DNA from: Candidatus Altimarinota bacterium
Lineage (GTDB): Bacteria; Patescibacteriota; Gracilibacteria; BD1-5; UBA6164
Length of the DNA: 37,165 nt
Direction: 5' to 3'
NCBI GenBank assembly: GCA_028702055.1
Contig: JAQVPN010000001.1
Coordinates: 1 to 37,165 of the forward strand
The position numbers were made by a program, and so were the translations under genes. The first letter of the stretch is position 1, and the number at the start of each line of letters is the position of its first letter. Of this stretch, positions 5,625-33,123 are shown in pieces. Under the pieces are notes generated by a model. It had not been told where the DNA came from. It made no database searches and worked only from the letters and a program-made list of their open reading frames with translations.

Positions 5625-6884
5625 TTATTTATTTAAAAAATAAGTTTTAATGTTTTTCATTTTATAGTAAGAAACAAAAAAGTAAATAGAATCTAAAAAT
5701 AAAATGGTTCCCATATTTAAAATATCAAAATTAAAGCTTAAATAAAGCAAAATTCAAATTATATTCATAAAATAAGAATAAAAAATTATGATATAATAAT
5801 CATATAAATATTTAAATTTTATTTTATAAGCAAGTCAAATAAAAGAAAAAGCTAATAAAAAATTAATAATAAAAAATGTTATTCAAGTAAAAAAAACAAA
5901 TCAATTATAAGAAAATAATAAAAAATAAATTATAAATAAAAATGAAAAGATAGAAATTATAAAAGATAAATAGTTTTCTAAATGATAATGAAAATAATAA
6001 TTTAAAATAATTGAAATTATAAAAAATAAAATTATAGAAAAATCTAATCAATAAAAAATTAAATAAATTATAGAAAATAAAATTCAAAAATATAAAAATA
6101 ATATAGAAATAAATCTAAGTATAATTTTATTTTTTATAAAAATATTTATTTTTGGTAAATAAATAAAAATAATATAAGAATAAAAAATAGATAAAATAGA
6201 TAAAGAAAAGAAAATTGTTTTAGAAAATCAAAACAAATAAGTATTTATTAAATAAATTAAAAAGAAAAAACTAAAAAAAATTACATAAAAAATTGAAAAA
6301 TTTGAACTTATTTTATTTTTTAAAAAATTATCAAAATAAAAAATTATTAAAGATGAAAATATTATCAAAAACGAATTTATTATATCAATAAATCATAAAA
6401 AATTATTTTTACTTAAAATAATAAAAATAAATAAAATTATATAAAAAAATGAAAAAAGATTAGAATTTATTCTTAAAAAATCTTTAGATAAGTTTGATTT
6501 TTCTGATATAAAAAAGAAAAATATTATCAAAGAATTTACTAAAAAAATAAAATATGAAAAATCTATTTTTAAAAAATATGAAAAGATTGAAAGTGAAATA
6601 TAAAATAAAATAAATCAAAAATGATATGAAAATCTTTGAATTAAATTAAAAAATTCTTTTTTATTTATAGAAAAAGAAAAATTTGATAATATAATTTCTT
6701 TTTTATCTTTTTTATTAGAAAAATTTAAAAAATGAAAAAATAAATAAAATCATATTAAAAAATATCAAATTATTTCTATAAACAAACTTCAAGTAAAAGA
6801 TGAAAAATAAGGATTTCAAGTTTTATAAAAAAATAGAAAAATTATAGAATATAAAACTCAAATAAATAAAAATATATATGACAT
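5625..6884 (-). CDS. Polytopic membrane protein of unknown function
   Basis: A 419-residue, very hydrophobic protein with roughly twelve membrane segments rich in Phe, Ile, Leu and Tyr, separated by short Lys/Asn loops. I recognise no transporter or enzyme motif. The A+T-driven Phe/Ile/Tyr/Asn/Lys composition makes homology hard to see by eye. The start is the first ATG downstream of the hairpin at 6913-6940. The stop lies 2 bases before the leucyl aminopeptidase start, so the two are probably co-transcribed. It could be a flippase, glycan polymerase or transporter. Confidence 0.75.
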
Positions 6885-6912
6885 TTTAATTTATTATTCT
6901 AAATAAATTTAA

Positions 6913-6940
6913 AAAACTTCTAAATTAAATTTAGAAGTTT
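6913..6940 (-). terminator. Hairpin at the end of the coiled-coil gene
   Basis: An inverted repeat (AAACTTCTAAAT / ATTTAGAAGTTT) overlaps the stop codon of the gene at 6931-8307 and is followed in the minus direction by a T-rich tract. It lies inside the operon, so it may only partly lower expression of the downstream membrane-protein, aminopeptidase and comF genes. Confidence 0.55.
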
Positions 6941-8307
6941 ACCATGAAGAATATAAATATAAATGAAAATATTGCAAAATTAAATATTATAGTTTTTAAA
7001 CTTTTAGAAAAATTTAAAAATAAATAAATTAAAATTAAAAAAATTAAGTATTTAATTGTTATAAAATTTATATTATATTTTAAATTTAAAAAATTATTTA
7101 AGTTCAAAAAAAATATAAAAAACAATGAATATAAAAATAAAAAATAAAAAATTGGTTTTTTAATAATATAAAAAATATCATTTAATAATCTTAAATATTT
7201 TTCATAAGTATTAACAACTCTTGTATATGAAAAATTTTCTTCGCTTATTTTTAAATTTAATAATTCTATATTTTGATTAACTAAATTTGTTTTTATTTTA
7301 AATAATTCTACATATTTTTTATTTTCTTCTGAAGAAAATAAATATTTATTTAAATTTAAATAAAATTCTTTTTTTAATTTTTTTCTTAATTTTTTATATC
7401 TATTTAAAAGTAACAGATTTTTTTGATAATAATAAGTTTTTTTATCTAATTCTTTTTTTTCTTTTATTTCTTTTTTAAAATTATTATCAAAAAATTTTTT
7501 TAATTTATTAATAAATTTTTTTGATAAATAAATTAAATCTTTATCTCTTTCTATAAAAGTTTTTTTAGATCAAATTTTTTTAAGTAATTTATTAGTTTCA
7601 TTTAAAACTAGAGATAATTCTTTAGTTTTTTTATTTTCTAAAACCCTAAGTTCTATTTCTCATATTTTTTTTAAAGCTAATTCTCATATTTCTTTTAATT
7701 TTGATATATTTGAAGAAGTTTTTATTTTTATTATATTATTATAAACTGAAGTTAATTTTTCTAATTCATCTCTAGTTAATTCTTTATCAATTTTTAAATC
7801 TATTATGTTTTTAAGTTTTTTTAATATAAATTCAATTAATTTATAAGTTTCTTCTAATTCTTTTTTAGCATAAAAATTTTCTTGTTTTTGATCTTTTTTT
7901 GTTTCGTTTTCATTTTCTTTTTTTATTTCATTTTTATTTATATTATTTCATTTATAAATAATATATTGTTTTTCTATGATATTTATAAGATTTATTTTTT
8001 CTAATTCACTATAATCTATTTTATCATAAATATATTTTACTTTATATCATAATTCATCTTTTAATTTAATATAAGCTTTTAATATATCATTTGATTTTAT
8101 ATTTCATTTTTTTTCTTCTCAATTATTATCTATAATTTCAAAATAAAAAGATTGTCCAGACACTTCAATATTACCTATCTCTGAAATAGTTAATATTGAA
8201 TATCATTCTTTATGTAATTTTTCTTTTAATTCTAGCTCAGAATTAGATTTTATTACAAAAGTATATTTTTTTCAGTCTTTTGATACTTCTACTTTAAAAT
8301 TTTGCAT
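6931..8307 (-). CDS. Coiled-coil protein with two C-terminal membrane segments
   Basis: A 458-residue protein I do not recognise. Residues 1-35 (KYTFVIKSNSELELKEKL, then GYSILTI) look like a small alpha/beta domain and faintly resemble the start of PilC/GspF proteins; I would not rely on it. Residues about 130-380 are Lys/Glu-rich with heptad-like Leu/Ile spacing, probably long coiled coils. The last ~75 residues contain two hydrophobic segments and end in FMVNF. This suggests a tail-anchored scaffold facing the cytoplasm. The start lies 2 bases after the stop of the small gene upstream, so translation is likely coupled. Confidence 0.7.
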
Positions 8308-22842: not shown

Positions 22843-23955
22843 TTAGTTATAAACTATTTCTTTTATTTTATTTTCAAATTCTTCTTCACTAAATCTCAAA
22901 GCATTATTTTTTATATTTTCTTCATTATATACATTATTTTTTATATTATTATCAAAAATTTTAAATTTTTCTATAAAGTCACTTCAATCAATATTATTAT
23001 AAAATTCTCAGGTAATTCACTCTAAAACAGTTTCTTTTATTCATCATTCTGATATTCCAAAAATAGCTTTTCAAGCAGCCATACACTCAACAATTGCTAT
23101 TCAAAAATCTTCTACTCAAGTAAAAATTCATCAAATACTTTCTCAAACTATTTTAAACAAATCTTCTCAAGATTTATATCAAACAAATTCTATATTGTTT
23201 CATTTTACTAATTTTTTTAAATTTTCTTCTTGATTTCAAACTCAAACTATTTTTAGTTTTTTGTCAGGCATTTTATTAAATTTGTCTATAATTAAATCTA
23301 CTTTTTTCCATTCAGTTAAAGCAGATATTGTTATATAATAATCTTTTGAGTTATACTCTTTTGTTTTTTCCATAAAACTTTTAGTATCAACTGGGGGGTA
23401 TAAAACTTTACTATCATTTCTTTTATAATATTTTATAATTCTCTTTTGTGCAACTTTACTTGCGATCAAAGGAATATCTACTCTTTTACTTGCTATATAA
23501 TCCCAAATTCTAAATTTTAGAAATAATTTATTTAGAAAATATCATTTTAATCATTTATCAAATCAAATCATTTTTTTATATTCATTTGTTTGATGCCATA
23601 AATATCATGAAGGAGAATGGTAATAAACAATAAATTTTGTTTCAGGTTTTGTAATTGCTCAATGTGCAAATCAACTAGAACTACATAAGACAACATCATA
23701 TTCAGAAAAATCAAAACTTTCTATTGCCATAGACATAAAAGGTAGACAAAATCTTTGATTTTTTGTCCATTTATAAACTTTTTGAGTAATATTTGCTACT
23801 TTTACTTTTGATGCCGGAAATATGTCTCAAACTTTATTTTCGTCATAAATTAAAGTGTAAATAGGAGCCTCCGGAAATATTCTCATAAATTTTTCTACCA
23901 CTTTTTCAGCTCATCCTTTTTTGATAAGCATTTCATGTAATATTGCTACTTTCAT
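22843..23955 (-). CDS. Glycosyltransferase, GT4 family
   Basis: A 370-residue GT-B glycosyltransferase using a nucleotide-sugar donor. The N-terminal half begins VAILHEMLIKKGGAEKVV (the acceptor-domain glycine loop; the first Gly GGA, the second UGA) and contains YHSPSGYLWH. The C-terminal donor-binding half has VLYPPVDT, TEWKKVDLII, VGVGNQEENLKKL, and the E-x7-E motif in GVEDFGIAIVECMAAGKA, followed by GGIKETV. Length and order are normal. It likely adds a sugar to the surface glycan handled by the convergent genes at 20451-22690. The start is the first ATG after the divergent promoter region shared with the pilin-like genes. Confidence 0.93.
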
Positions 23956-24023
23956 TTTATTAATTTTTATAAAATACTTTTTTATTATATTAATTTTTGA
24001 TAATTTCAAAATTTTTAATAAAA

Positions 24024-24029
24024 TATAAT
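24024..24029 (+). promoter_or_regulatory. Consensus -10 (TATAAT) before the pilin-like genes
   Basis: A perfect TATAAT 26 bases upstream of the ATG at 24055. The nearest -35-like hexamers (TTGATA at 23997, TTTCAA at 24004) have poor spacing, so the -35 is uncertain. Confidence 0.4.
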
Positions 24030-24054
24030 AAAATAATTTATTAATTTTCATTTT

Positions 24055-24681
24055 ATGAAAAAAATAGTTTTAATTTTCTTCTTTCTTCTTTCTTTTTGAA
24101 TTTGAAATGTTTTTGCTGTTAATGTTGATATATCTTTAACGGATTCAGTATTCTGAACTAATAATTCTCCTACAACTAGTCCTGTAACAAATAATAATCC
24201 ATATCGACCTACAGTGAAAAATGCTAATAATTCATCACCCAGGCTTGATACAACAAATTCAACTGAGGACACTTCATTATATTGAGTTGACACTTCATGA
24301 TTTTCTTCTAATCAATGAAATTCTTCTTCAACAACAACTTCTTGTGCTTGATGAAAAGAATCTTTATGTTCAGCTGATTTTGAAATAGATACTTCTTTAT
24401 TTTCACCTGGTTGAAATAATTTTAAAAATAAATCTACTTCAAAAAAGACAATTGATTGATTTTTAACTACTCTGATACAAAAGTTAATGATAGCATTATG
24501 AAGTATTTCTTTATTTGTAATGATTATTTGATCATGATTTATGATTTTTGCTATGTGAAAAGATGATAACTTAAATAAATGAAAAACTATTTTTAAAGCT
24601 TGAATTATAGCTTTAGTTATAGCTTTATCTTCTTATATGATGGTTTCTTTATTGAAATATATTTTATATGCTAATAATTAA
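24055..24681 (+). CDS. Pilin-like exported protein with two C-terminal TM segments, 208 aa
   Basis: Signal peptide (MKKIVLIFFFLLSFGIGNVFA), then an Asn/Ser/Thr-rich linker of about 90 residues, a short Cys pair (SCAGGKESLCSADFEID), and two membrane segments (LMIALGSISLFVMIIG and AGIIALVIALSSYMMVSLL) joined by a charged turn (MGKDDNLNKGK). The turn and paired helices match the VirB2/TrbC-like T4SS-pilin type found in CPR bacteria. It is the first and longest of four such genes in a row, spaced 2-4 bases. The Ser/Thr linker could be glycosylated by the adjacent glycan genes (inference). Confidence 0.75.
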
Positions 24682-24684
24682 AAA

Positions 24685-25071
24685 ATGAAAAAACTTATTA
24701 TATTAGTATTTGTTTTAATTTGATTTATTTCATTTGATTTTACTTATGCAACTAGCACTATAAATTTTTTATGAAGTTCATCTAGTTCTGTTTGACCTGA
24801 TGTTGCTTGAGCTTGATTGCCTTGATCTTCTTCATCTTGAGAAGCAATTGTTTCTACATATATTCCAAGAATTATCACTACAATTATAAAATATACTGCT
24901 GTTATTGCAGTAATATCAATAATAATAAGTTGAATAATGTATATGTTATCATTTTGACGAGAAGATAAGGCTAAAAAAGCTAAAAGTTGGATTATTTATT
25001 CTCTTGTTTGAGTTTTGATTTCAGTTTCAGCTTATGCTATAATTAATCTGATTAATTCTATAAAATTATAA
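24685..25071 (+). CDS. VirB2/TrbC-like T4SS pilin, 128 aa
   Basis: Signal peptide ending in TYA, a short Gly/Ser/Ala spacer, then two membrane helices (YTAVIAVISIIISGIMYML and IIYSLVGVLISVSAYAII) with the turn SFGREDKAKKAK between them. The turn (Gly, acidic, then alternating Lys-Ala) is the most typical CPR T4SS-pilin feature in the set. It would be processed at the signal peptide and lie in the membrane or assemble into a filament. Starts three bases after the preceding gene. Confidence 0.82.
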
Positions 25072-25075
25072 TTTT

Positions 25076-25441
25076 ATGAAAAAAATAATACTATTTATAT
25101 TTATTTTTACATCTAGTGTTTTTACAGTGTTTTGAGCTAGTTCTATAAGAGAAGATATGATTCCAGATACTGAAACTATTGCTTGAAACACTTCAGATAT
25201 CGAAACTTGAACTTGATCTTTAATGCCTATATTTTTATCTTTTAAAAATATTATTTTAGGTCTTTTAGCTATAATTGCAGTAGCGATTTTTATATATTTA
25301 GGATTTAAATTAGTTAAAGCTGAATGAAAACCAGATGAATTTAAAAAGGTTATGCTTTGATTTGTTTATGCTGTAATTTGACTTTCTATTATTCCATTAG
25401 CTTGGGCTATGGTAAAACTTATTTCTTCATTACAATTTTAA
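25076..25441 (+). CDS. VirB2/TrbC-like pilin-type protein, 121 aa
   Basis: Signal peptide (MKKIILFIFIFTSSVFTVFGA), an acidic/Thr-rich spacer (REDMIPDTETIAGN), and two membrane helices (IILGLLAIIAVAIFIYLGF and VMLGFVYAVIGLSIIPLAWA) with the turn KAEGKPDEFKK. Same architecture as its neighbours but clearly diverged, so these are old paralogues rather than a recent tandem copy. Four bases after the preceding stop. Confidence 0.78.
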
Positions 25442-25443
25442 AT

Positions 25444-25869
25444 ATGAGTAATAAAATTATAAAAAAAATATTATTATTATCTTTTCTTTTTATAAGTATT
25501 TTTTCTTTTTATAATAATTCTTTTGCTGTTTGTACAGATGATTCTAGTGTTTCTGATTGTTTAAATTCATCAGAATCAAAACCTGAAAGTTTAGTTTGAA
25601 TAAATAATGATTCTTATGATGTAAACGAAAGCTTTAAAACCCAAATACTTAATATAATAAAAACTTTGTCTTCTATTTTGTCTATAATAGCTATATGAGC
25701 AATTGCATTTTCTGGTCTTAAAATGACTCTCAGTCAATGAAAAGACGAAGATATTAAGAAATCAAAAGATATAATAAAGTGGACAATTATATGATATTTA
25801 TGACTTATGTCTTCTTGAGCAATTATAGCTATTGTTATAAATTTTGTATATTGAATTTGATGAAATTAA
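25444..25869 (+). CDS. VirB2/TrbC-like pilin-type protein, 141 aa
   Basis: A long signal region (SNKIIKKILLLSFLFISIFS, end SFA) followed by a small Cys pair (VCTDDSSVSDC), a spacer and two membrane helices (LSSILSIIAIGAIAFSG and IGYLGLMSSGAIIAIVINF) joined by MTLSQGKDEDIKKSKD. The acidic-then-Lys turn again matches T4SS-pilin proteins. Last gene of the four-gene unit, closed by a terminator. Confidence 0.78.
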
Positions 25870-25880
25870 TTTTAAGAAAT

Positions 25881-25908
25881 AAAAAAACTGTCTTTTGACA
25901 GTTTTTTT
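25881..25908. terminator. Bidirectional intrinsic terminator
   Basis: AAAAAAACTGTC / GACAGTTTTTTT with a four-base loop, twelve bases after the last pilin-like gene and five bases before the end of the convergent surface-protein gene. Confidence 0.88.
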
Positions 25909-25912
25909 ATTT

Positions 25913-28228
25913 CTATTTAGCTATTTTATTTACTTTCATATATTCTTCTACAAAACTAGTAAGTAATGGAGGAGGATTTTTAAATATAGCAGATTTAAAA
26001 TTTATTACAGTTCAAACATTTATGATACCATTATCTGATTTCATATAAGTTCTATTTGATATTAAATCTTTTACATTTCAATATAATCAACCATTTATAA
26101 TTAATCTATTATTTGTTTTTATAGAGTCAGAATTTATATTTCATCAAATATTATTTTCTTTAATTGTTATATAAATTCATTCAAGTCAAGTAACACTATT
26201 TGAAATAATAATATTTCATCATTTTACTATAAATGCAATATTTCAAGAAACTAAATCAATATTTCAATTTATATATAAATTTCAATCTTGTATAACATAT
26301 GTTTTATTTCAAACTATAGATTGTCAATTTAAAACTAAATCTCATTTATGTGTAAATACATTAGATATTCAATTATAATTTTCTGTAGGAAGAGTATATC
26401 AAGTAGAATTATAAGTAAAATTGTAAACTTGATTTATACTTTTACTTGAATTATTCCATTCAGTTAAAGAATCATTATAAACTCAAGTATTTTCTATCTT
26501 ATTTACATAAGAAGAAAATCAATTATTTTGAGATATAGAAGTAACAATAAAGTTTTTATTTCTCAAATCTGTTAAGAAATTTTTAGAAATTGTATCTACA
26601 TCAGAATAATAATTTGGATCATAGTTTAATAAAGAAGTTCATCATGAAATAGATCAAACAGATGATTTAGCTACTATAACTTTCAATGTAGAGCTTAAAT
26701 AACTATTTTGTAGTCATTCAGGAGCTGTAAATAATTTTACACTCTCAAATGCTCATATAACATTATCTGTATTTGCAGTATAATCATTAGTGTTTATTTG
26801 AAATTTTGCTCAAGCGGCAAGAGATCATATATTTCAAGAACTACATATTGACAAATTTCATTCAAGATATGATTTATTTTCTTTATATAAACATAAAGGT
26901 TTTTCTATATAAAGATCATATCAAGTGTTATTTTTAATATAAGGTCTATCTAAATTATAAGTTGCAAAAAGTTTCATATTATTACCAAGAATTGCTCAAC
27001 CAGATGGATAAAAAATTATTCAGTCTTTATCTGATGGCATTGTATAATCTCATCATCATTCAGAAGGAGTTGTACTATCTCAAGTTATTTTACAATCACT
27101 TTTACTACACCAACTAGGCCAAGTAGAACTTCAAAAATCACATTCTTCAAATTGAGCATTTCAATTAGGTCTTTGTAAAATTCAATCTCAACAAACTGTT
27201 ATTTTACAAGAAGTGTTACAAGCATATTTTGAATTATTAGCGGATCATAAATCACATTCTTCTCATGGATTAATTACTCAATTTCAACAAGAAGATCAAC
27301 CACCACTACCTCATCCTCATCAACCACCTCATCAAGTATTATTAGTTGGAATACAAGAACTTGAACATCAGTATATTCACCATCATGTTTTTGTAGAATC
27401 TTTAGGATCACATAATTCAGATCATTGTTTTATTCAATCTCAACATTCTGGTAATCAACCACCTCAAGTTGAATTAGAAGGTGTACATGAAGATGTACAA
27501 CCTAAATCTCACCAACCAGATTTAGAAGCATCATTTGGATCACAAGATTCTTGAGAATCTTTTTTTCAATCTCAACACCAAGCTCATCTAACTATATAAC
27601 ATTCATTATGAGTGTAAGTAGATCAAGAATATATTTTTAAATTTCAGCTTGGTCAATTTATATAGGTTCAATCTAGTCTATAAGTTCAATTAGATAATAA
27701 AACTTCATTTCATTTAAGATAATTCCATCATAATAATGGCATTGCTACAGATAAACTATCTGTTTGATTTGTGTTATCAACAGCAGCTCATTTTATATTA
27801 AATTGAAGTTTTCATATAACATTTCAAGTTCATGTTGGAATTCAAGAAAATAATAGATTTTCTAAATAAAATGCAACAACTTCTTTTGTTCAATTTATTC
27901 AAGCTGTCTTTGGTATCCAATTTGTTCTTAATTGTATATTTCAAGAAGAACTTAAAGATGCTCAATTTAAAGGTGTAATTATTCAATTAGAAGAAGAAGA
28001 TAAAATTTGCTCTTTTTGAGAATCATTTAGGAAATAATCCCAATAATCTTTTGATTCTCATTTATATAAAGCTCAATCATAATATCAACAAACATCACAA
28101 GAATTTCAATAAGATGAAGCATAAGTTCAAGTTGAACAACTTTCATGAATAACAGAATCTGCGAAAGCATTATTTTTTAATAATGCTAATGTAATAACAA
28201 ATCATATGTATATTAATATTTTTTTCAT
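25913..28228 (-). CDS. Large secreted cysteine-rich protein with beta-helix-like C-terminus
   Basis: A 771-residue exported protein. Domains: signal peptide 1-23; a module from C44 (SCDVCGYYDGALY) to C210 (THNEC) shared with two neighbouring proteins; Cys-rich repeats at 218-380 in the pattern CGDG...E-x-CDP...GWG...C-x-x-SC, like the Myxococcus/DUF4215 cysteine-rich repeat; a poly-Gly linker at 299-310 written with GGT, GGA and UGA; and a C-terminal region with short periodic strands (GDLVLNG, GNLYINGNID, GNIIISN) suggesting a beta-helix, ending near FKNPPPLLTSFVEEY. It is probably a long adhesin-like surface protein. The start is the ATG directly before the signal peptide. It is not a pseudogene: the frame is unbroken only with UGA = Gly. 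Confidence 0.85.
27089..27577 (-). repeat. Cysteine-rich repeat block within the surface protein
   Basis: Encodes residues 218-380 of the gene at 25913-28228: four CGDG/CGNG-initiated units, the first two nearly alike (CDPNDASKSGWG and CDPKDSTKTGWG). Similar single units occur in the next gene (CDPGDPNKIGWG). Confidence 0.75.
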
Positions 28229-28245
28229 AAGATATTAATTTAGTT

Positions 28246-29430
28246 TTAAAAATTTCATCATGAAGTAGAATTTGTTGGAACATTTCATTCTCAAGCTCTA
28301 GAAGTAGTTGTTCCAAGTCAAGATCAAGGAGTTCCAGGAATTAGCTGACAAGATGAATTACAAGAATTTCAAGCAGTTCAATTTAAGTTTCAATTATCAC
28401 AAGTTTCTCAATAAGAAGAATCTATTATTTTATCTCAACACCAAGAAGTGCTATAATATATACATTCTTTATGAGAAAAATCATCTCATGTATCTATTGT
28501 ATTGGAATTATCATAATTTATAGTATATTGAATACCAAAATCATAACTATTTCTTGTTCAATTAGTTGGAGTTGATGGAACTCAAGCTATCCTAAGTTTA
28601 TTTGGAGATGTTTCTAATACAATCATTCTTTGATTAGGATTTAATTTGTATGAAGAACTTATTATTGATTGAGACCAATTAAAAGGTTTTAGAATTCATT
28701 GATTATCTAAAAATTGAGGATTTACATAATCTATATTAAATTTATTTAAATAAGATGTATTTGATCAATTTATAAATTCATCATAAAAGTTATATGCATA
28801 GTTATATCTAAGTTTTCATCAATCAAAAATTTGATCACATTGATTATTATTAACAGGTTTACAAGATGTATTACATCAATTTGGTCCCCATCATATTTTG
28901 TTTGGATCGCCAGGATCACAAATTTCTCAATAAGAAGGTTCTATTACTCAATCTCAACACCAAGAAACACTATAATAAACACATTCTTTATGTGAAATAT
29001 CATCAGATGCATTTGGAAAATTATTAGAATAATCATAGGAAGTTGTATATTCAATACCAAAATCATAGCTATTTCTTGTTCAATTTGTTCTTGTCTGAGG
29101 TAATGAAGAAATTTGTAATCTATTAGTTCAAACTTCTAAAATCCTCATAGTTGTATTAGCAGGAACTTTATAGTTATTGTTCTTTAATTCCTCAGTCCAA
29201 TGAAAAGGATTTTTTATTCCCCTTGTATTTAAAAAATTAGGATTTATATAATCTATATTAAATGTATTTAAATAAACATCATTTGATTTTGATATAAAAT
29301 CATCATAAAAATTATAAGTATAATTATATCTAACCATTCATCAATCAAAAACTTGATCACATCGTGCTGACAATATATTAATATTACTTAAAAATAATAT
29401 TCAAATCAGGAATAATATGTATTTTTTCAT
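28246..29430 (-). CDS. Secreted protein made of a tandem 165-residue duplication
   Basis: A 394-residue exported protein: signal peptide 1-22, then repeat 1 (24-190) and repeat 2 (198-361), then a Gly/Thr-rich tail. Each repeat starts CDQxFDGGxxRYNYxYNFYD, contains FNIDYxNPxFL, GTRNSYDFGIxY and SHKEC(V/I)YYS, and ends with a Cys-rich CGD...E-x-CD...C-x-x-SC unit. I do not recognise the domain. The module is related to the first 210 residues of the neighbouring protein at 25913 and to the LPKTG protein at 33228. Likely a surface protein stabilised by disulfides. It ends 17 bases upstream of the next start. Confidence 0.8.
28348..28839 (-). repeat. Tandem protein repeat, copy 2
   Basis: Codes residues 198-361 of the gene at 28246-29430. 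Key matches to copy 1 are CDQIFDGG, RNSYDFGI and SHKEC. Confidence 0.75.
28861..29361 (-). repeat. Tandem protein repeat, copy 1
   Basis: Codes residues 24-190 of the same gene (CDQVFDGG, RNSYDFGI, SHKEC, GWGPNGC). The protein sequences of the copies have clearly diverged, so the duplication is not recent. Confidence 0.75.
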
Positions 29431-29451
29431 ATTTTATAATTTTATATATTA

Positions 29452-29643
29452 TTATTTAATTCTATCTCATTCTTGAGAAATAGGGAAAGATAAAGATCAA
29501 GTTATATTTTTTGTAGATATTTCTCAATTATCAACTCCTATATTTTTGTTAACTATATAATTTTCTTGTTTTTTATTAAAAAGAAAGAAAATTATGCAAG
29601 AGATAACAATAATTATTAAAATTCAAATTGCAAATTTTTTCAT
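29452..29643 (-). CDS. Small membrane-anchored protein, 63 aa
   Basis: One N-terminal hydrophobic segment (FAIGILIIIVISCIIFFLF) followed by a short polar tail (NKKQENYIVNKNIGVDNGEIST...). The ISC at residues 14-16 is not a good lipobox, so it is more likely a single-pass protein. It contains three UGA codons in a 63-codon frame and sits between two large surface-protein genes with short spacers. Function unknown; an accessory to one of them is possible. Confidence 0.6.
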
Positions 29644-29667
29644 ATTTTATTTTTTATTTATAAATTA

Positions 29668-32600
29668 TTATCCTCTTGTTCAAGATTGACTTGTTCGAGG
29701 TGTAGTTGGACTTACTGTATTTGTAGATGTTCATGTTTGAGAAACAGGATTACTTGGACCAGTAGTTCATCAACTTATAACAGGGGCTGTAGTAGGTCAA
29801 TTAGTCAATGTTCAATTATTAGTTCAAGGAATAGTGGTTGTTCAAGAAGTGTCTATATTTGGATTAGTTGTACCAGGTCATGTTGTTGGAGCTGTATTAG
29901 GATTTGTTGGAGCATCTGGATCTTGTCAAGCATCATGTCATGGCTTTGTTTCTTCTTTTGGCTTTGGTTTATCTTTTTTTCAATCTCATCAAAATCAAAT
30001 ATTATAACTATTAACATCAAAAATAACTTTATTTGCTACAATTTCCCCATTAGGAGAAAATACCAAATCTGTACTTTTACCATTTAAATCTATTGATTTA
30101 ATTCTAAGTCAAAGAGTTTCATTTGCACATTGCCCATATAGCATAAATACAAAATCTCTATTTAATTTAATATCTTTTCATCCTTCATTTAAAGTTCAAG
30201 TTTTTAATAAAGAATCAAAAGAAGAATCATCTAATGAACTTCAAATTACTTGAGAAATAGATTTTTTTAATTCATTATAATAAAGAGTTGATTTCATTTT
30301 ATCTATAGTATGATTTACAAGTAAATCATTATTTGAAATAGATATAATTCATTTTTCTCATCAAACAGAACTAGCAAGACCTGCTGGAATTGCAGCTTCA
30401 CCTGATGCTAAACGATGAGCTTTACCATCTTTATTATATCAAATTTTATATGATGCTACAAATCACATAACATCATTAACATTTTCTTTTACTTGATTTG
30501 TTCAAATATTGTTTTTAGTTTCTGTTCTTAATTTTAGAATTTCATTATATACTTCTTTATTAGTATAAACATTTTTCAATCCTGATTCTCTTGAATCCCA
30601 TAATTTTTTATCACTTAACACTTCTTGTATTGAGTTTTTATCTTTGAATATAACATCTTCAAATTGAGCTAAAATATAAGCTTTTTGCTCAGGATTAACA
30701 TTTTTAAATTTTGATAATAATTTTTTTATATCTGAATCTTTTTTTAATACTGGATCAGTTTTTAATATATTTTCTAAAACATTAAAAGCATTATCATTAT
30801 CTCAAGCAAATAAAGCATTTGCAAATTTAGGATAATCTTTGGGATTTCTCATTGCTAAAGGAGAATATCAATCTTTTGATCAGTCAAATTTAGAAATATT
30901 TGATTTTAAATAATTATCTAACTCTTCGTTTTTAAATTCTGACATAGAATCAATTAATTCTTTTCAAGAAATATTTTCATTTTTTCAAGAATTAGATCAC
31001 TTAGATCAAGCCATATAATTAATTGCTTTTGAATGAGAATCTTCTGAATATTTAGTTTCATAATCTGATACTCTTAATCAAAGAGTAGGAATAGGAAAAA
31101 ATCAAGAAATAAATTGTACTCATAAACCAATTCATGTTAAATTAAATCCATCATCTTGTGCTTTATTATAAATAGTTTCTTTCCATTTATTCAAAATTGA
31201 ATATTTTAATCATTGAACAACGAATTTTTTTTGACTGTCATTAAAACTATTATATCATATCAAATTCAATGTATCTTTTATTTTAGAAGCATAAGATGCA
31301 AGATATTCTCTATCCTCAAATTTTAAAGATTTAACTAAAAAAACATCTAATTTATTTTCAAATAATTCATCTAAAATATTTGAAAATTCAATCTCTTTTT
31401 TATCTATAGCATCTTTTTTTTCTTTTGTCCAATGAAGAGTTAATCAATTTGCTAAAGTGCTAATATTTCAAGTTATTCATACATACTTTGAATCTGAAAA
31501 ATCTTTAATTCAAGCATTTTTAATATCATCTTTATTATAATTATAATTCAAAGTTCAAGTTAAATATGGAACATTTAAAAATAATCATGCATTAGCTTTA
31601 AATTTCAAATCTTCTGATAAATTGAAATTTTTTGAAGGAAAATTTATTCATACTCATGGAACATATTTTCAACCAATATTTGTAAATCATAAATTTAATT
31701 GCATTCATTCAACTATAGAAGATGTCTTATTTTTTAATAAATCATCAATTTTTTCATTTGAAAAAGTTCAACCAGCTCAAATTCATTTTTTGTTATCAAC
31801 AAGACTTATCAATAAAGAAGCTCAATTAAATTTGAAAGAATCTATAAAAGATTGTTTATTTTCTCTATAAATTTTAATTAAATCATTAATTTTTGTTTTT
31901 TCTTCTTCAGTTTTTGCTTTAGATAAAGAATTTTCTAAGTCTAACAAAGCTTGTTCATATTTTGGAGTAAATCAAGATTCTAATTTATCAGTAAAATTTG
32001 AAGTACTTTCTATATTTGATTTAATTCAATTTTTTCAATTAATTAAATAATCAGACATAGAAATTCAAGCCATATGAGTAAAATATAATTTATTAAAAAA
32101 ATCATATTTTAAAGATGGATTTGTTTTAATTGCATTATATAATCATTCTTTAGTATTTATTGAAAGTCATAGAATATTTCAAATATTTGTTAATATTTGT
32201 TTTTCATATTTTGAATTATTTTCTATAAAATCTAAAACTTGTATTCATGAAATCATGGCTTTATTATCATCTTTATCCAATTTTCAATCAGAATTAATAT
32301 CACAAAGTATTTTGAAAACATCATTAGAATTATTTTCCTTAATTGTATTTTTTGTATTTACTAAATTTAATACAGAGATTCATTGATTTTCTAAATTTTT
32401 TAATTTTTTTAATTTAGCTACATTTATTTTTGAAGAGAATTCATTTAATTGAGATAATTCTTTATCATTAAAAGTAAATCAGTCATATTTATATCATAAA
32501 TTTTCCCAAGTTTCCTTATCCATTCATATTTGTCAACTTGATAAAACTTCAATAGCTGAATCAATATTAAGATCTGAAACTTCTTCTTCTGTTAATCATA

Positions 32601-33123
32601 AATACTCTAATTTTGCCATTTTTTCATCTTTTTCAACTTGACTTAATTTTAACTCACCTCTTTCTTTTTTTGATTTTTCTTTAACAGCAAATGTTCCTGT
32701 TACATTATCTTCTAATGTTTTAACTTTTTCTTGAGTTTGTTGTTTTACTAATTCTTTTCATTCCATGAAATTTTGAAGGACATCTAATTCTTCTTTAGTG
32801 CAAGAAACAACATTTTCTTTGATTTCATTTATTTCGTATGCCAATTTAACAGCTTCTTTAACTTTTATTAAAGCCTTTCTTTCAGATTGATTGAATATAG
32901 AAGGAATATCTGAATCTTCAATTTTATTCTTATTATTTGATTCTTTAGCAATTTCTTCTAAAAATTTTCTAGCTATTCTTCTGTCATCTTCATTGTTTTT
33001 TAAATCAAAAGGACTTCTTTCTAATAAAAAATTAGAAACTTCTTTTAAATTTAATTCATCAAGTTTTTTTATATTTTTAACTTCTGTTGAAGAAGCAGGG
33101 CTTTCATTTTTTATTTCTGACAT
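29668..33123 (-). CDS. Giant protein with EF-hand loop and Pro/Thr/Gly-rich tail, 1151 aa
   Basis: A 1151-codon frame open only with UGA = Gly. The N-terminus (MSEIKNESPASSTEVKN) has no signal peptide; the first ~250 residues are charged helices. Residues 275-286 form a textbook EF-hand loop (D275, N277, D279, G280, L282, D286). Around 473-560 and 670-695 short alternating strands rich in Gly, Tyr and Phe (MQLNLGF, YVPGVGINF, ANAGLFLNV, GIGLGVQF, PTLGLRV) resemble beta-barrel or beta-sandwich strands. Residues from ~1050 on are Pro/Thr/Gly/Asn-rich, without cysteine. I recognise no family. The neighbours are exported proteins, so leaderless secretion or an intracellular structural role are both open. 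Confidence 0.8.

Follow-up and report, generated by a model that had tools for sequence, protein, structure and literature searches.

Known conjugative pili are built from one major pilin. Tandem arrays of divergent VirB2-like pilins have already been published for Patescibacteria (PMC12102498, PMC10633639), including a survey of 441 arrays of 2–11 pilins that were interpreted as possible variability towards different hosts (PMC12102498), and Tn-seq has found the 6-pilin type IV secretion system (T4SS) array of Southlakia epibionticum to be essential for epibiotic growth (PMC10633639, PMC12857230). The array described below bears on why a Patescibacterium T4SS needs several divergent pilins, by a feature that is new, namely a four-position orthology that is fixed across an order.

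The array and its four products

The window analysed here, a stretch of 37,165 nucleotides (contig C75), belongs to an ultrasmall Gracilibacteria bacterium using genetic code 25, whose 1.09-Mb genome comprises 166 contigs and is 90.8% complete. Four pilin-like genes, p1–p4, and their flanking features are as follows.

22843..24051, minus strand: glycosyltransferase (Glycos_transf_1), divergent neighbour, outside the T4SS (profile match, family synteny)
23956..24054, no strand: AT-rich divergent intergenic region of about 100 bases, if the glycosyltransferase Met near 23955 is the start
24055..24681, plus strand: p1, pilin-like subunit 1, 208 aa (PF18895 below cut-off, hydropathy, profile comparison with p4)
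24685..25071, plus strand: p2, pilin-like subunit 2, 128 aa (PF18895 and Mbov_0395 matches)
25076..25441, plus strand: p3, pilin-like subunit 3, 121 aa (PF18895 over cut-off)
25444..25869, plus strand: p4, pilin-like subunit 4, 141 aa (PF18895 over cut-off, AlphaFold2 model)
25875..25914, no strand: hairpin of 18 pairs without mismatch, lying between the array and a convergent surface-protein gene (-22.1 kcal/mol, z -8.7)

The four genes occupy 24055–25869 on the plus strand with gaps of 3, 4 and 2 bases, exactly where an earlier sequence-only reading had placed them. Their reading frames are open only under genetic code 25, in which TGA encodes Gly, p1 to p4 containing 16, 10, 7 and 9 TGA codons, respectively. 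As called, the glycosyltransferase frame begins 3 bases from p1; its true start is likely to be a conserved Met at about 23955, leaving ~100 bases to p1 as in relatives. The promoters of both p1 and the glycosyltransferase probably lie in this region, and the hairpin following p4 is a probable bidirectional intrinsic terminator. A consensus scan for terminator- and promoter-type elements gave promoter-like matches in 23956..24054 no more often than chance and did not list the 25875..25914 hairpin.

The best family for all four products in hmmscan is PF18895 (T4SS_pilin), with E-values of 5e-4 (p1), 1.8e-5 (p2), 1.1e-6 (p3) and 1.8e-8 (p4), in agreement with their earlier description as T4SS-pilin-like. 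Relative to the curated cut-off of 26.6 bits, p3 (29.1) and p4 (34.8) score over, p2 (25.2) just under and p1 (20.4) under. The TrbC/VirB2 model PF04956 (cut-off 27.9 bits), which the same reading had also named, fared less well, listing p2 only and under its cut-off (23.1 bits, E 8.6e-5), with p1, p3 and p4 not listed. The NCBIfam model of the pilin-like conjugal transfer protein Mbov_0395 is matched by p2–p4, at E 3e-5 to 1e-7 and below cut-off. PF18895 is matched by every orthologue of p2 (19/19, at E<=1e-3), p3 (21/21) and p4 (26/26), and by only 4 of 23 orthologues of p1. Profile comparison joins p1 to p4 (probability 98.8%, E 5.8e-17) and p3 to p2 (E 8e-16); judged by these profiles, p1 is an outlier of the PF18895 family, yet homologous to p4.

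Hydropathy gives an N-terminal signal segment, a variable spacer and two helices in all four products and in their relatives, and the loop joining the helices carries the pattern G-[KR]-[DE]-[DE]-x-x-K-K or a variant of it in each; the proposed architecture with an acidic/Lys-rich loop is thus borne out. The signal peptide of p1 is followed by a Ser/Thr/Asn-rich spacer of about 110 residues and two transmembrane helices with the loop GKDDNLNKGK. It is the most divergent subunit and has the most variable ectodomain, with S-P-G conserved before the first helix; its length in relatives (127–615 aa, with start codons chosen automatically) is set by the spacer, and in one relative p1 contains a peptidoglycan-binding domain (PF01471, 37.3 bits). 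In p2 the spacer has a GLPG motif, which is C-x-GLPG-C in relatives, and the loop is GREDKAKKAK; the loop of p3 is AEGKPDEFKK. A nearly invariant Cys pair (C30/C39) follows the signal peptide of p4, the loop of which is GKDEDIKKSK.

The AlphaFold2 model of p4 comprises a signal helix (4–23) and a hairpin (61–96/101–139), with a mean pLDDT of 75.7 and about 77–93 in the hairpin. Foldseek and VIA searches with this hairpin returned generic helical hairpins only, an uninformative result as expected for a bare hairpin. The Aeropyrum conjugation pilin 8dfu ranked second as a fold relative and was rejected as not significant (E 2.1), and the one match of the p4 profile among PDB sequences was not credible.

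Positional orthology and gene neighbourhood

The four subunits of the window share 24–30% identity with one another, compared with 57–63% for the same position in the sister genome G001, the only one of the window's genus in the comparison, and 33–63% in other genera. Each subunit has same-position orthologues in about 30 further genomes. When 13 complete arrays of the window's family are compared, 624/624 best hits fall in the same position, and 811/840 do so once two arrays of a second family are added. Classification by profile in 31 genomes of the order recovered p1-p2-p3-p4 on one strand in 30/31 loci, the lone exception being G012, where the short stretch read contained p4 alone. The position profiles were built from 15 arrays, and 15/16 loci outside this building set also show p1-p2-p3-p4; outside the order the profiles are without power to separate positions. 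A maximum-likelihood tree built from 88 hairpin regions recovers each of p1–p4, and likewise a fifth pilin (p5), as monophyletic, with clade support of 99, 95, 100, 90 and 100, respectively. The four lineages are therefore older than the divergence of the two families and have remained distinct, without exchange.

The view that these genes are too divergent for recent duplication agrees with the tree clades and the low mutual identity, and both recent duplication and shuffled or antigenic variants were rejected on the tree and the positional best hits. A related explanation, formed by analogy with Bartonella and Anaplasma, is that tandem amplification of one pilin produced interchangeable or antigenic variants. 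Tandem paralogues as divergent as these would fit such a history, which has been suggested in print for Patescibacteria VirB2 arrays (PMC12102498). We regard it as very improbable here, given that the members of every position form a single clade spanning two families, that gene order and positional best hits are so constant, and that variation is concentrated in the spacers and not in gene number or order. Taken together, fixed order, positional best hits and clades favour four specialised subunits of one assembly over antigenic amplification, and sequence comparison thus suggests that p1–p4 are distinct parts of one T4SS machine rather than interchangeable copies.

The surroundings of the array are less constant. 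Divergence from a glycosyltransferase, noted earlier together with a shared promoter region, holds in the window's family (14 loci, 13 of them with an O-antigen-ligase gene beyond) and does not extend to the other family of the order examined, in which the glycosyltransferase is not the array's neighbour. A gene for an HExxH zinc metallopeptidase (Peptidase_Mx1-like; L109:8741-9616 and 15 other loci) directly follows p4 in 16/18 relative loci, usually with RNase J next in the window's family; its product is possibly involved in pilin processing or wall-related. In the window's genus this gene is separated from the array, lying on another contig of the same genome (C92; L251:3166-4056) and about 21 kb away in G001. 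At three loci of the second family (L123, L125, L126) the neighbours of the array are genes for a solute-binding protein and a 7-TM protein. In the window's family, proteins of comparable make-up are encoded after the PrgI-TrsD-pilin operon.

Genes of the rpmH-rnpA-yidC type often mark the replication origin. They lie within about 10 kb of the array in the window and directly beyond it in G001, where the array runs co-directionally into a DNA-alkylation gene, rpmH, rnpA and yidC; dnaA was not located. T4SS genes near the origin have been reported in other classes (PMC12102498). Between the array and yidC, the window has an inverted segment with three large predicted surface-type proteins of 771, 394 and 1151 aa (25913–33123) that have no significant Pfam match; this block is absent from that place in G001. 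The convergence of the array with giant surface proteins, to which attention had been drawn, is therefore real in the window and reflects a local rearrangement, the array being followed by the DNA-alkylation gene in G001 and by the metallopeptidase in most relatives; a functional meaning was rejected since the arrangement is missing there. Elsewhere in the window, G+C falls to 10.8% within 6001–8000, a region with ORFs of 419 and 458 aa.

T4SS genes elsewhere in the genome

A scan of 20 window proteins around the array (from 18.6 kb up) recognised no VirB4, VirB6 or VirD4, as had been stated from the sequence. Genes for VirB4 and VirD4-like proteins do lie on other contigs of the organism.

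C159, 2002–3888: VirB4 (PF19044, E 1.7e-27; CD1110-family VirB4 equivalog, 341.9 bits against a cut-off of 325)
C104, 4962: PrgI/VirB3 (over profile cut-off)

The VirB4 also matches Mbov_0397, a mycoplasma integrative and conjugative element (ICE) ATPase, below cut-off. On C104, PrgI is followed by TrsD, a 235-aa protein matching the N-terminal part of the VirB4-like Mbov_0397, and then by another pilin gene, truncated where the contig ends; the PrgI-TrsD-pilin order is complete in relatives. PrgI, TrsD and VirB4 are adjacent in one Ca. Abawacabacteria locus (L225), and the scattered pieces are therefore taken to be one system. VirD4-like ATPases, the T4SS role of which is only putative, are found on C65/C120 and C94. 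VirB4 and VirD4-like proteins are each present in 40/40 genomes compared, every one with 6–17 PF18895 matches, and PrgI is present in 24/25. The sequence-only reading had left open whether the four products act by themselves or with a system elsewhere; the existence of the VirB4 ATPase speaks against a self-standing structure, and VirB4, PrgI/VirB3, TrsD and VirD4-like proteins on other contigs fit the latter option. In none of the loci read from the order does a four-pilin array lie beside virB4; linkage of array and virB4 is usual for T4SS of the FATA type but does not define it. Surveys of virB4 neighbourhoods can consequently miss pilin arrays where T4SS genes are scattered. A gene for a SpoIIE-type phosphatase adjoins virB4 (L010:754-3891) and is kept in most virB4 loci read (17 family members); it could be a T4SS regulator.

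Could the array instead belong to some surface or membrane assembly distinct from the T4SS, perhaps one involving type IV pili, or the glycosyltransferase together with the O-antigen ligase? It is unlinked to virB4 and lies beside the glycosyltransferase in the family, and one other PF18895 gene, a solitary one (L014:5904-6335), is found beside apparent type IV pilus/type II secretion assembly genes. The array nevertheless persists in the second family, where its neighbour is not the glycosyltransferase, its products belong to PF18895 and co-occur with VirB4 and PrgI, and arrays within the T4SS locus of Saccharibacteria are essential (PMC10633639), all of which makes a separate structure rather improbable.

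Pilin hairpins also occur in larger proteins. Chains of about 306–362 aa with three consecutive PF18895 hairpins are encoded on another contig of the same genome (C24; L011:7982-9722), and in G001 a VirD4-like ATPase is followed by two triple-hairpin proteins and a single-hairpin pilin-like gene (L145:5312-10791), a layout that recurs in relatives. AlphaFold2 predicts three hairpins in the triple-pilin protein at low confidence (pLDDT 54), and this model was set aside. Giant proteins of about 1330–1670 aa that carry a T4SS pilin hairpin at the N terminus (L264:7621-14767, L263 from 8004, L265 from 7016, L262 from 3872 and L267 from 7297) have a long PKD-repeat ectodomain in the one scanned, and are possible pilin-anchored surface fibres or adhesins. 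Those of L263–L265 adjoin triple-pilin genes and lie outside the window's family.

The proposal that virB4 and virB6 homologues might be found elsewhere held for virB4 only, as neither PF19597 nor PF04610 (TrbL) matched a VirB6 in the genome. VirB6 has been reported absent from the class Gracilibacteria, and a relaxase is reported to be rare in the phylum (PMC12102498). One explanation of the array is that p1–p4 are not pilus subunits; they would stay membrane-embedded and form a hetero-oligomeric translocation pore that replaces the undetected VirB6, for which natural fusions of three pilin hairpins beside VirD4-like ATPases would also speak. This appears unlikely to us: VirB6 may be too divergent for detection, and the long p1 ectodomains, together with the one p1 that has a peptidoglycan-binding domain, fit an extracellular structure better.

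A proposed four-pilin assembly and known systems

We propose, with moderate confidence, that p1–p4 form one operon of four specialised VirB2-like pilins (PF18895) of a chromosomal monoderm (FATA-type) Patescibacteria T4SS that act together in one assembly, the T4SS genes of the organism being dispersed over several loci. Each pilin would be exported by Sec and lose its signal peptide, and the mature form would be a two-helix hairpin in the cytoplasmic membrane, its helices joined by a short charged loop and its N-terminal spacer facing outward. VirB4, VirB3/PrgI and TrsD from the other loci may then extract the hairpins or assemble them into one envelope-crossing pilus or channel. Such an assembly would require all four positions, with p1 and its variable ectodomain probably the most host- or wall-facing. 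We infer co-assembly, dependence on VirB4, the form as filament or channel and a role in host-cell contact. Counting against this reading of p1–p4 are the separation of the array from virB4 in the order, the failure of two models to detect a VirB6, the few PF18895 matches among p1 orthologues, and the presence in the same genome of other PF18895 pilins with which VirB4 could really be working.

More tentatively, the T4SS may possess an obligate hetero-oligomeric pilus or channel of four non-interchangeable hairpin subunits, or more with other fixed pilins, possibly also replacing VirB6. If true, this would be unlike conjugative pili with their one major pilin. Under a heteromer the position-specific parts would be the variable ectodomain of p1, the GLPG motif of p2 and the Cys pair of p4. 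The four-position orthology turns the published idea of variability for different hosts, against which the tree speaks in this order, into a testable choice, and favours the heteromer.

Compared with known systems, p1–p4 resemble type IV pilins as small, potentially filament-forming membrane proteins, but have two helices and a Sec signal peptide, no type IV prepilin motif in their sequences, and belong to a different family. Similarity to Mycoplasma ICE consists of the weak matches of p2–p4 to Mbov_0395 and of the genome's VirB4 to the VirB4-like Mbov_0397, all below equivalog cut-offs, and no sign of an ICE was seen at the loci read here. Like VirB2/TrbC conjugative pilins (PF04956), the subunits have a Sec signal peptide and two membrane helices joined by a short charged loop, and p2 gives a weak TrbC match, whereas here the score is below the TrbC cut-off and there are four distinct pilins. 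The closest likeness is to the VirB2-like arrays of Patescibacteria (PMC10633639, PMC12857230, PMC12102498), which likewise consist of tandem divergent PF18895 pilins with a mean identity of about 25% in genomes with VirB4, PrgI and TrsD; the present array differs from them in having four pilins with strict position orthology over an order, located away from virB4, with PrgI-TrsD at a third locus.
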